Shown here piece by piece: positions 2,260-57,138 of a stretch of 64,000 nt of DNA. Below the pieces are notes generated by a model. The model was given only the letters and a program-made list of their open reading frames with translations. It searched no databases and was not told the DNA's origin. The translations under genes were made by a program, and so were the position numbers. The stretch's first letter is position 1, and each line of letters starts with the position of its first letter. Source of the DNA: a virus; the IMG/VR virus record IMGVR_UViG_3300020179_001612, positions 1 through 64,000 of that record, one strand, 5' to 3'.

Positions 2260-2790
2260 ATGAAAAGAAAAATTAGATTAACGGAATCAGAACTTTATAG
2301 ATTAATAAGAAGGGTTATATCTGAACAAACAACAAAACAAGTAACAGTAACTGTTGATTGTACTGCAAAAACATTAGACACAATGGCAATGACAGCACCA
2401 ATGATTACTAAATACTGTACAGAGACGAAGGGTACAACAACTCAAACATTAGCTCAAGAATATAAAATGACTAGAAAGGATCAAATTATTTTAACAAGAG
2501 CCGAATTAGATTCAATTGGCGCCTTTAGTGCTGAGGTTATAATAGATAGTTCTGATAAAGTTTCAGGTGTTTCTTTTAAAATGAAAAAAGAATTAACTAA
2601 CCCGTCAAGTATGGGTGGTGGTATTGCACAACCTTTTTATTCTACCGCCGATGGTGCAGGACAAGGAACAGGTAGAGTTGCGGGTGGAGTAACACAAATT
2701 AAACCGTATGTTGATGCGGGAGTAACGACTGCAGAAGCGGTAAGAAAATTAGGTGAAAAACAAGCTAAGGCTTCCCAAAGCTTTAAATAA
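2260..2790 (+). CDS. Putative virion protein with capsid-targeting-like N-terminus
   Basis: The 176-residue protein starts MKRKIRLTESELYRLIRRVI followed by SEQ. This amphipathic basic helix ends in I-S-E and closely matches the start of the gene at 8100. The remainder is Thr/Lys-rich with a Gly-rich middle and no recognised domain. It is co-directional with the gene at 1666 and ends in a strong terminator. The N-terminus resembles the cleavable targeting peptides of T4 internal proteins, so I infer packaging inside the capsid. Confidence 0.6.
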   Translation: MKRKIRLTESELYRLIRRVISEQTTKQVTVTVDCTAKTLDTMAMTAPMITKYCTETKGTTTQTLAQEYKMTRKDQIILTRAELDSIGAFSAEVIIDSSDKVSGVSFKMKKELTNPSSMGGGIAQPFYSTADGAGQGTGRVAGGVTQIKPYVDAGVTTAEAVRKLGEKQAKASQSFK

Positions 2791-2810
2791 AAAAACAATA
2801 ATAAAAAAAA

Positions 2811-2836
2811 AGGAACCAATTTGGTTCCTTTTTTTA
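2811..2836. terminator. Bidirectional rho-independent terminator
   Basis: AGGAACCAA-TTT-GGTTCCT forms a perfect stem followed by a T-run and preceded by an A-run. It therefore serves both the plus-strand gene ending at 2790 and the minus-strand gene ending at 2834. Confidence 0.85.
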
Positions 2837-3436
2837 TTTATATAACATTCTAATAACTTCTTTATCTATTTTAGATAATTGTTGTGTTGTGGTGTAACCT
2901 TCGTAAAAGATACTATCTTCGTAAGTCCAAGAGTCGTTTGCTAAACCTAACGATTGTGTAATTTCTTCAATTATTGCATGTTTTTTATCTAAAGATGAAA
3001 CATCATTTCTAATAAAAATTTTTACATTATCGATAATAATAGTACCACTATAACTATAAATTAAACAATACCCATTACAACTAACGTATTGTAACTGATT
3101 ATAAACATATTTAGAGTTAAAATTATTAAAATCACCAAAATAAACAATTGAATTTGCTTCCGATTTATTTTTTACAATTGTAATTTTTATACTACCAATT
3201 AATGTATTTAATTCTGTTATTAGACTTTTTACATTGATTAAATCTTGGTTAGTGTAGTAACCATCCAAATACATTTTAATATCTTTATCCCACTTTGTTA
3301 TTTTATTAGTATTATCACCTTTCATTTGATCACTACCATAAGCAACCTCATTGAAATAAGATTTAATTTGTTCTTGTGTTTGACAAACAGAAAATAAAGT
3401 CATAAATAAAAATAAAGAAAGAATAAAAATTTTCAT
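2834..3436 (-). CDS. Secreted DUF2927-like putative metallopeptidase-fold protein
   Basis: This 200-residue protein has an N-terminal signal peptide (MKIFILSLFLFMTLF, then SVCQT). The C-terminal part contains HAIIEEITQSLGLANDS, which resembles the HxxxEExxQxLGLxND signature I associate with DUF2927, a family related to zinc peptidases. The His and Glu residues are present. The protein would be exported to the periplasm or outer membrane of a Gram-negative host. Such secreted proteins are typical phage moron genes that alter the cell surface or block superinfection; that role is inference. It is transcribed opposite to its neighbours with its own leader. Confidence 0.6.
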   Translation of the reverse strand: MKIFILSLFLFMTLFSVCQTQEQIKSYFNEVAYGSDQMKGDNTNKITKWDKDIKMYLDGYYTNQDLINVKSLITELNTLIGSIKITIVKNKSEANSIVYFGDFNNFNSKYVYNQLQYVSCNGYCLIYSYSGTIIIDNVKIFIRNDVSSLDKKHAIIEEITQSLGLANDSWTYEDSIFYEGYTTTQQLSKIDKEVIRMLYK

Positions 3437-3511
3437 ATGAGTTATATTAAATAATTATAATACAAACTTACGAAAACTTTTTATATCTACAAAACTATTT
3501 TTTAAAAAAAG

Positions 3512-3523
3512 ATATATTTATTA
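3512..3523 (+). promoter_or_regulatory. TATATTTATTA motif, candidate late promoter
   Basis: The motif is 17 bp upstream of the ATG at 3540, has the same core as at 1639 and 20708, and no -33 TTTG box. Confidence 0.45.
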
Positions 3524-3539
3524 ATAAAATACAAATTTT

Positions 3540-4319
3540 ATGAAAAATATTTTATCAAGTTTAAACGAATCTGAAAAAAGAAGGATTCTTGAGATGCATT
3601 ATAGGACATCGGGTAGACATTATTTGAATGAACAAACACCAGACACAACACCAGCATTCCCAACATCCGGTGTTGAAAAGGATCTTAATTTTCCTGTGGA
3701 TCAAAACATAATAACAAGCCTCAAGGTTAATACTAATGAATTTACAACAAAGGTACGAGTTACTTTTAATCACGATACAGGGGCATCTACCGCAATGTTA
3801 GTTGGAACACCTAAAACAGGACCGTCAACGACATGGAAATCGTCATTTGATTGTAAATGTCCTACATCAACTAGTCCAGACGCAGATATAAGTTCAACTT
3901 ACGGATTTATAGAAAAAACATCTGGTTTTAATGGAACTAAAGAAAATCTTAATGCCAATACTACAGTTTCAGGTCCAATGATTCAAAAATGGATTAAGGA
4001 GAGATGTGTTGCGTATTTAAAAGATAAAAAAAAATGTGGACCAGTTCTTGCAACAAGAGGTGAACTGAACGCTCTTTACACAAGGACAACACCAACGGAT
4101 ATTCAACCGGGTGACAGAAAAACAATTTGTACATTTGTTAGGGCAAAACAAGGATTTATTGGAATGGATTACCTTTACGATCAAAGAAAAATAATGGATA
4201 ATTTTCTAAGTAATATTGCATTTTATGCTCCTGGAACAGATCAAGAAACTTTTGATAACACTAGCTCTCAAGATTTAAGTGATAAAGGAGAACTATTTTG
4301 TAAAGGTTGGGGATTATAA
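3540..4319 (+). CDS. Putative virion protein with capsid-targeting-like N-terminus
   Basis: This 259-residue protein shares its first 20 residues (MKNILSSLNESEKRRILEMH) almost exactly with the gene at 1666, and even the codons match; after that the sequences diverge completely. The shared module is followed by RHYLNEQ, a second (L/I)xE candidate cleavage site. The body is Thr-rich with several Cys (CKCPTST, KERC, KKKCG) and no recognised domain. A TATATTTAT motif lies upstream and a terminator downstream, so it is a single-gene unit. The pattern suggests module shuffling of a head-targeting peptide onto different cargo. Confidence 0.6.
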   Translation: MKNILSSLNESEKRRILEMHYRTSGRHYLNEQTPDTTPAFPTSGVEKDLNFPVDQNIITSLKVNTNEFTTKVRVTFNHDTGASTAMLVGTPKTGPSTTWKSSFDCKCPTSTSPDADISSTYGFIEKTSGFNGTKENLNANTTVSGPMIQKWIKERCVAYLKDKKKCGPVLATRGELNALYTRTTPTDIQPGDRKTICTFVRAKQGFIGMDYLYDQRKIMDNFLSNIAFYAPGTDQETFDNTSSQDLSDKGELFCKGWGL

Positions 4320-55338: not shown

Positions 55339-55764
55339 ATGCCATTAGTTACAAGAATATTACCTCCTGACGCAAAAAACGCCAAACTGACATTCCAAGA
55401 AATGGATAATAATTTATATTATCTACAAAGTCTGGGGGTTAGCGGGCTTACTTTTTCTGCAAATACGTTAACAATAACAAACCCAACAGGGGGTACAAAA
55501 TCTGTTACAATAAATTCTGTAACAGGACTTACTGTAAATGGAAATTTAACTGTAACAGGAAATACATCTTTACAAGGATTGACAGCAACAACAATATCTG
55601 CAACTACAACAACCACGGATGATTTCATTTTTAAAACAACATACGTTCCAACAGGATCCACAGACCCAACAGGGTCTATTGGTTCGATGAGTTGGAGCGG
55701 CAATTCTTTTTATGTTAAAACAAATACCTCTTGGGTAAAATTTACGGGACTAACATCGTGGTAG
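55339..55764 (+). CDS. Short tail-fibre protein
   Basis: The 141-residue protein contains a triple-beta-helix-like repetitive stretch: TVNGNLTVTGNTSLQGLTAT. A short C-terminal domain (SWSGNSFYVKTNTSWVKFTG) follows. A 77-bp segment is identical to one in the fibre gene at 56461-56537, so this is a shorter relative of that gene. Its last 23 bp overlap the convergent gene at 55742. Confidence 0.65.
   Translation: MPLVTRILPPDAKNAKLTFQEMDNNLYYLQSLGVSGLTFSANTLTITNPTGGTKSVTINSVTGLTVNGNLTVTGNTSLQGLTATTISATTTTTDDFIFKTTYVPTGSTDPTGSIGSMSWSGNSFYVKTNTSWVKFTGLTSW
55519..55595 (+). repeat. 77-bp direct repeat, copy 1
   Basis: An exact copy of 56461-56537; encodes the repetitive fibre shaft segment. Confidence 0.9.
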
Positions 55765-56239
55765 GTTTAAAAAAAACACGTTCTTTAGAACCAACTATTT
55801 GTTTATACCACATACCTTTATCATCTAACCAAACATAAGGATCTTCAGGATTTTCAGTCCAACCATGTTTTGTGTAATATTCAAAATCTTTACGTAAAAG
55901 ATTTGCTCTGTGAGACGAATGAAACTCTTCGTTACCCAACCAATGTGGCAAAACAAATTCACCTTCAATTGTCTCGTATTCCATGTTATTTTTAAATCCA
56001 CGTTCTTTCCAAACATCAATACAATCGTTGTAGTATTGTCTAAGTGCATTTACATAGTCTTTCCACATGATAGAACAAGGGTGAGACACCCAACCTTTAT
56101 ATGGTTTACCATCTTTACGCAATCTACCTGTAATTGCTGAAATAATTTGATAAGCCTCAACACGCTGCTTACCTAAACGTTTGTTGTCTAATGACTCTAA
56201 TGATTTTATAAAATCGGAATACGGAAGAAATGTTTGCAT
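55742..56239 (-). CDS. Pyrimidine-dimer glycosylase-like protein (MSMEG_6728 family)
   Basis: The 165-residue protein opens MQTFLPYSDFIKSLESLDNK followed by RLGKQRVEAYQII, the signature of the MSMEG_6728 / Pyr_excise-like family related in annotation to T4 endonuclease V. HPCSIMWKDYVNAL and EFHSSHRANLLRKD follow. Enzymatic activity is unproven for most of the family. It is on the opposite strand between two fibre genes that share a 77-bp repeat, which suggests insertion into a fibre locus. Confidence 0.7.
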   Translation of the reverse strand: MQTFLPYSDFIKSLESLDNKRLGKQRVEAYQIISAITGRLRKDGKPYKGWVSHPCSIMWKDYVNALRQYYNDCIDVWKERGFKNNMEYETIEGEFVLPHWLGNEEFHSSHRANLLRKDFEYYTKHGWTENPEDPYVWLDDKGMWYKQIVGSKERVFFKPTTMLVP

Positions 56240-56265: not shown

Positions 56266-56280
56266 TATCACAAAATATTT

Positions 56281-56520
56281 TATGAAAATGGCATATTAAC
56301 AGGTCAAACAAATATAGAATCTTCAATAATATCGGCAACAACATATCAGAATTTACCCGTAACTGCAGATACGTTCACATCAGCATTCACATATTCAAAT
56401 AACGTATTTACAATATCAAGAAATCAAGGTCAACCAAATTTAATAGCAACAATTAATACCGTAACAGGACTTACTGTAAATGGAAATTTAACTGTAACAG
56501 GAAATACATCTTTACAAGGA
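56281..56520 (+). other. In-frame 5' part of fibre gene lacking a start codon
   Basis: The fibre frame is open from 56269 and reads ENGILTGQTNIESSIISATT then QNLPVTADTFTSAFTYSNN. The ATGs at 56282 and 56288 are in another frame and run into TAA after a few codons. One extra base after ATG-GC at 56288 would give M-A-x-L-T-G-Q, a typical fibre start. So the gene has a probable 1-nt deletion at its start. Confidence 0.6.
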
Positions 56521-56537
56521 TTGACAGCAACAACAAT
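56461..56537 (+). repeat. 77-bp direct repeat, copy 2
   Basis: Exact copy of 55519-55595; encodes the same fibre shaft segment. Confidence 0.9.
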
Positions 56538-57138
56538 CAGTGCGACAACAATAAGTGCAACAACACTCTATGGTGATGGTTCTAATTTAACGGGAGTTAG
56601 TGGTGGAGGTTACACCTATGAAATTGGTGAGTATGTCCCATCACAAGGAGGAGTAATATTTCATAGATACTTAGATGGTGTAAATGAAAACTATCTAGTT
56701 GTTGATACCGCTGATTTGAACACATCATCTGTTTGGAGCAATGTAACTACTACGTTTATTGGTTCAACTGCTCAAAGCACATGGGATGGAAATTCAAATA
56801 GTAATGCAATAGTAGGACAAGGTGGATTTACAAGTGGAGCAGCTAAATTGTGTTTAGATTCAACTAATAATAGCAAAACAGACTGGTATTTACCGGCTAT
56901 TGATGAGTTAAGTTTATTATGGCAAAACAGATTTAATGTAAATAGAACTTTATTTGGTAGTAGTAGTTATGGGGCAATTGAGGCAGCCACTCAAATTGAT
57001 TATAATGCCTATTGGAGTAGTGCGGAGGACTCCAACAGCACTGCGTGGTACTTCAACTTCGTCAATGGGTTTGCCAGCAACGCCTCTAAGAGCTACACGG
57101 CCAATGTGCGTGCTGTAAGAAAATTTAGCTTACCTTAA
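56521..57138 (+). CDS. Tail-fibre C-terminus with DUF1566-like lectin fold, DGR target
   Basis: From the first available start (TTG at 56521) the product has 205 residues, though the natural protein probably starts near 56288. Residues 1-20 are fibre shaft (TATTISATTISATTLYGDGS). The rest is a DUF1566/formylglycine-enzyme-type C-lectin domain: GEYVPSQGGVIFHRY, DWYLPAIDELSLLWQNR and YWSSAEDSN near the end, closing NVRAVRKFSLP. The last 100 bp are far richer in GC than the genome and dominated by NNC codons, the mark of adenine mutagenesis by a diversity-generating retroelement. It should present the variable receptor-binding tip. Confidence 0.75.
   Translation: MTATTISATTISATTLYGDGSNLTGVSGGGYTYEIGEYVPSQGGVIFHRYLDGVNENYLVVDTADLNTSSVWSNVTTTFIGSTAQSTWDGNSNSNAIVGQGGFTSGAAKLCLDSTNNSKTDWYLPAIDELSLLWQNRFNVNRTLFGSSSYGAIEAATQIDYNAYWSSAEDSNSTAWYFNFVNGFASNASKSYTANVRAVRKFSLP
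57012..57113 (+). other. Candidate DGR variable region
   Basis: This stretch encodes W-S-S-A-E-D-S-N-S-T-A-W to V-R-A-V. Variable-type positions are almost all NNC codons, for example TAC TTC AAC TTC GTC and AGC AAC GCC. That is what AAC codons of a template become when A is replaced at random. GC content of 57021-57110 is 50 of 90 bases. No template copy and no reverse transcriptase were found in the window. Confidence 0.7.

Follow-up and report, generated by a model that had tools for sequence, protein, structure and literature searches.

We analysed a stretch of 64,000 nucleotides (hereafter the window) from an uncultured virus of bacteria; its IMG/VR record comprises 65,359 bp and represents a fragment. 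Two fibre open reading frames lie on the plus strand, with a minus-strand gene for a pyrimidine dimer DNA glycosylase between them (55742–56239; PF03013, E = 1.7e-20). The first is a short fibre gene that encodes an N-terminal anchor of its own (55339–55764). The second, the tip-bearing frame (56266–57138), encodes a collagen-like 'LTVNGNLTVTGNTSLQGLTATTIS' module upstream of a C-type-lectin-like domain of the Lcl_C (DUF1566) type (56710–57121, plus strand). It contains neither an ATG nor a GTG start codon, and the first possible start is a TTG at position 56521. The two frames share an in-frame direct repeat of 106 bp, in which 97 of 106 positions are identical (55507–55612 in the short fibre gene and 56449–56554 in the tip frame). 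Recombination between these repeats would join the N-terminal anchor to the lectin tip, in the manner of a silent cassette. The tip frame lacks a normal start codon, with the TTG as its sole possible start, and shares the repeat with a complete fibre gene. It could thus be a silent module for the tip that needs recombination for its expression, or else a gene that is broken. On the basis of its domain build and neighbourhood, the encoded protein is predicted to form a fibre tip, which presumably binds to the host surface.

The preliminary description had proposed a C-lectin fold of the DUF1566 type, and this assignment was borne out. PF07603 matched the tip domain with E = 5e-11, AlphaFold2 yielded a confident model (pLDDT 90.5), and the best solved structure matched to this model by Foldseek was the C-terminal domain of Legionella Lcl (8q4e, E = 2e-7). 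Among cultured phages, only two Pseudomonas phages had relatives of the tip (about 32%).

The 3' end of the gene, which lies within this lectin-type domain, holds a variable region (VR) of 104 nt. It extends from TATTGGAGTAGT to GTGCGTGC (57010–57113, plus strand) and codes for YWSSAEDSNSTAWYFNFVNGFASNASKSYTANVRA. The GC-rich 3' end noticed beforehand was evident from the composition: the tip has a GC content of 0.52 and a GC3 of 0.63, compared to 0.35 and 0.19, respectively, in the upstream domain. The variable region had previously been placed at 57012–57113; the end at 57113 was retained, while the start had to be moved to about 57007/57010. Identity to the template described below stops at GTGCGTGC (57106–57113, plus strand). 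The sequence 3' of it is the phage's own, of the type TGTAAGAAAATTTAGC, and relatives with AT-rich tips retain the same RKFSI end. Phage and cellular VRs diverge directly after GTGCGTGC(GGT), and no significant GC-rich hairpin or IMH stem-loop was found 3' of the window VR or of most phage VRs, which have only the end GTGCGTGC in common. Thus, target signals of the BPP-1 type are absent from the phage VRs.

The VR backbone was searched for in 84,980 prokaryote genomes, where six stretches matched it. A complete cellular DGR is present on L073, a contig of 4,466 bp in a Chitinophagaceae MAG from a lake. It consists of an Lcl_C target gene with a VR (799–1764), bAvd (1823–2167; PF22296), a template repeat (TR) of 104 nt (2286–2389), and an RT gene (2458–3726). 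The template is the AAC-rich sequence YWSSTENDNNNAWNFNFNNGNANNNNKNNTNYVRA, and the L073 target protein is homologous to the window tip across the whole domain, with 57% identity. Comparison of the window VR with this template clearly revealed an adenine footprint: 20 of the 43 adenines were changed, compared to 3 of the 61 other bases (Fisher p = 5e-7), the latter at positions 57031, 57042, and 57103. AT-rich tips of equal length, which served as controls, showed no adenine bias, with 20/43 A and 32/61 non-A differences for L016 and 21/43 A and 29/61 non-A differences for L020. With this footprint against an independent template, the assignment of 57010–57113 as a DGR variable region, made earlier from the window alone, is strongly supported. 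The preliminary description had also noted a match to DGR target proteins of Bacteroidota phages and suggested a search for an AAC-rich near copy of the VR beside an RT. A template with both RT and Avd indeed exists; its carrier, however, is a Bacteroidota MAG and not a phage, and no such copy was found in the phage records searched.

The matching template occurred in one bacterial genome only, that of L073, which accounted for the single hit among 395 genomes of the class and among 246 of the family. As AAC-rich templates may assemble poorly, their absence from the databases weighs little. BLAST searches with the template repeat in a cultured-phage collection and with the phage VR in a plasmid collection gave no match, under a low-complexity filter that may mask AAC runs. 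VRs of the same backbone are present in other Bacteroidota MAGs, namely, L077 (a Flavobacteriaceae contig of 1.04 Mb), L072, L074, L075, and L076. No matching template was found in these assemblies, and the RT matches in the genome of L077 resemble group II introns. Cells, too, may harbour orphan VRs.

Relatives of the tip are encoded at 45 viral loci, some with the GC-rich cassette and others with an AT-rich tip. The latter encode the same Lcl_C framework using AT-rich codons, often contain indels, and show no adenine bias relative to the template. Scanning IMG/VR for the VR/TR backbone returned 27 stretches, including short Lcl_C proteins (about 120 aa) of other phages, and none of the 27 was a template. 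When 17 distinct phage VRs were compared with the L073 template, 315 of 731 adenines were changed (43%), but only 18 of 1037 other bases (1.7%). These VRs come from several phages that are unrelated to one another, and from Lcl_C proteins of two kinds. The VRs of L007, L049, L059, L063, L064, L067, and L071 had no non-A mismatch at all (0/61), and the same was true, once gapped, for the VR of phage G044 (L045, at G044:162609), which carries a 9-nt insertion relative to the template. The VRs of L072, L076, and L077 differ by whole codons. In view of these differences and the 9-nt insertion, several length variants of the template probably exist.

The short, stand-alone Lcl_C proteins (about 120 aa) belong to AT-rich phages and carry the same variable cassette at their end (L061, L063, L067, L071, L054, L059, L049, and L066); they are not obvious fibres. 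The tips of L009, L035, and L038 resemble decaying VRs with codons drifting to AT, and L009 has 8 non-A changes. Such eroded tips could possibly serve as a clock that tells how long ago the last rewriting took place.

Seven cassette-bearing fibre lineages were compared; as they had been grouped partly by their GC-rich tips, the comparison is mildly circular. Amino-acid identity was 0.73 upstream and decreased to 0.43 in the VR, and third-position identity increased from 0.63 to 0.87. The pattern is the opposite of drift and is that of a DGR. The synonymous and amino-acid identity figures suggest that the VR postdates the divergence of these phages and has undergone repeated rewriting. Owing to the circularity, the weight is carried by the template match and by the comparison of sister phages.

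In the sister phages L061, L063, L071, and L213, variation was concentrated in the VR. Their flanks are 94–98.6% identical, and their VRs differ at 17–29 of the 104 positions; for L061 and L063, this corresponds to 0.96 mismatches per 100 positions outside the VR and 21 inside. Within the fibre family, L005 and L006 differ at 26 of 104 VR positions, with flanks that are 92.3% identical. Other close fibre contigs have one VR in common (L003/L005, 96.9%; L021/L022; L008/L010; and the window/L002), which counts against the diversification in trans considered below. These pairs say little about the rate of rewriting, since their identity also extends over the 500 bp to either side. The window and L002, its sole near-identical record, are identical over 16 kb, including the VR.

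In agreement with the preliminary description, the window itself yielded neither an RT nor Avd nor a template. A search of the window for a TR pattern was likewise empty, and neither RT nor Avd was found in the whole 65,359-bp record. A weak RT-profile match in the window (14.5 bits) was rejected because it did not cover the catalytic palm. PF00078 detected no RT in three sets of related viral records (0/45, 0/17, and 0/7; 69 in all, among them the self-closing G044 and G046 described below), and the same search recovered an RT from 16 of the 18 further viral records that had been picked only for a TR-like motif. Avd (PF22296) was present in the L073 genome and was found in none of seven phage records, and no template repeat was found in the other long related viral records. 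G044, a VR-bearing relative of the window phage, comprises 296,330 bp with an end repeat of 174 bp (99.4% identity, one mismatch); 42 of the 68 window ORFs have relatives in G044, mostly in collinear order, with 56% for the DNA polymerase. G046 is a VR-bearing phage of 61,130 bp with an end repeat of 240 bp (99.6% identity, one mismatch). We took both genomes as complete, although they are reported as linear, which the single mismatch in each repeat may explain. No RT was found in G044 or G046 by Pfam, by RT alignment, or with a DGR profile built from 20 sequences, and neither a template nor Avd was found in them. AAC-rich stretches in G044 were considered as templates and rejected, as they represent threonine runs. 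The ends of the records G482, G486, G057, G021, G047, and G007 do not overlap, and these records were treated as fragments. In the 80 viral contigs whose RTs are most similar to that of L073, the recognisable templates differed at at least 18 non-A positions.

An alternative that involves no DGR would be an ordinary bias of codon use or composition within a conserved lectin loop, in so far as the Lcl_C framework residues are generally conserved. Relatives encode this very framework with AT-rich codons, however, and the changes are specific for adenine against a real template, both in the window and across the 17 VRs. The template match already refutes this explanation, and its probability is close to nil. 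A different alternative is that the window phage possesses a DGR of its own, encoded in a genome portion outside the 65-kb record. The record is a fragment, and judging by the 296-kb relative, the whole genome could be several times its size. Nevertheless, this same relative weakens the case, as the self-closing genomes of G044 and G046 lack RT, TR, and Avd. In addition, the backbone scan of all IMG/VR returned VRs and no template, and the best templates beside the 80 viral DGR RTs have at least 18 non-A differences. We therefore consider a DGR of the phage's own to be quite unlikely.

The main rival of diversification in trans is that the phages gained VR DNA that was already diversified, through homologous recombination, either with DGR target genes of the host or with other phages. 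The VR would afterwards have stayed unchanged until it decayed, so that no mutagenic homing takes place in the phage. In favour of this, the phage tip domain is homologous to the L073 target. Moreover, the tips form a graded series from pristine to eroded (0/61 non-A changes for L007, 3/61 for the window, and 8/61 for L009, followed by the AT-rich tips), and near-identical fibre contigs carry identical VRs. On the other hand, the exchanged tract ends at the edges of the VR, with flanks that remain phage-type, four sister phages have four different VRs, and no phage VR copies any of the bacterial VRs compared, of which few were available. Taken together, we regard capture without further rewriting as somewhat unlikely, but clearly less so than a DGR of the phage's own.

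We lean towards the view that the orphan phage VRs are diversified in trans by a bacterial DGR. According to this model, a bacterial DGR of the L073 type would transcribe its own template, and its RT would produce cDNA with random bases opposite the template adenines. When a phage replicates in that cell, the cDNA would replace the homologous stretch of 100 bp in its fibre gene or Lcl_C gene; the replicating phage would offer single-stranded DNA for this step. The phages would thus retain the target only and rely on the host for template, RT, and Avd. The donor DGR presumably resides in the actual host, and we infer that transfer occurs by cDNA homing and not by copying of a host VR. Diversification in trans is consistent with published work on BPP-1, in which the reconstituted DGR edited a target on another replicon, the stem-loop was not strictly needed and acted as an efficiency element, and the cDNA is thought to exploit single-stranded DNA exposed at replication (PMC12875486). 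Besides the shared VRs of close fibre contigs, three observations speak against it: the window VR already contains three non-A changes, the template is known from one bacterial genome only, and BPP-1-type target signals are missing from the phage VRs. The earlier proposal that diversification acts at a distance thus finds support for the phage group, given the self-closing VR-bearing genomes without RT, TR, and Avd and the near-identical sisters of another lineage with different VRs. For the window's own phage it is no more than conceivable: its VR is identical in L002, its tip ORF has no normal start, and the template-bearing bacterium may not be its host.

Several known systems resemble the one described here. 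In Bordetella phage BPP-1, whose target is the tail-fibre gene mtd, an A-to-N VR likewise occupies the 3' end of a gene for a receptor-binding protein with a C-type-lectin fold. RT, Avd, and TR lie beside the target of BPP-1, together with an IMH with a stem-loop, whereas none of these was found in the phages studied here. Gut Bacteroidota prophages contain second VRs distant from the RT cassette (PMC12629997), but in these the RT belongs to the prophage itself, while none was found in the searchable parts of our phage genomes. The crAss-like Epsilonunovirus phages with a deleted RT (PMC11054128) also have VR-bearing receptor-binding proteins. Their VRs, however, are relics of a DGR that the lineage once had, and the phages have close RT-bearing sisters; in the present case, there is no RT-bearing sister, and the sole matching template is bacterial. 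The chromosomal DGRs of Bacteroidota with DUF1566/Lcl_C targets, of the L073 type, have the same template backbone (0–3 non-A differences in 61) and the same target domain, but their target sits next to Avd, TR, and RT in the chromosome of the bacterium. DUF1566 has been described as a DGR target domain (PMC6642488). Remote DGR targets within the same prophage and crAss-like phages with a lost RT are thus already known (PMC12629997, PMC11054128), and we found no paper in the open literature on RT-less phages with VRs that match a bacterial template. Remote targets were undetectable by the method of the largest DGR survey (Roux et al., 2021; PMC8144416), and surveys that start from the RT overlook such targets.

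That the VR footprint occurs in viruses without a retroelement of their own suggests borrowing: a bacterial mutation machine would vary the tips with which these viruses bind to their hosts. More tentatively, a guild of unrelated phages may independently have come to retain in their adhesins nothing of a bacterial DGR but its 'write here' sequence. A single chromosomal retroelement could then rewrite the receptor-binding tips of any infecting phage, and targeted hypermutation would be a service of the host. If diversification in trans is true, targeted hypermutation of phage adhesins would be more common than RT counts suggest, and the template sequence would provide a searchable handle that ties phages to DGR-bearing hosts. 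A host element would then feed the tropism change of its own parasite.
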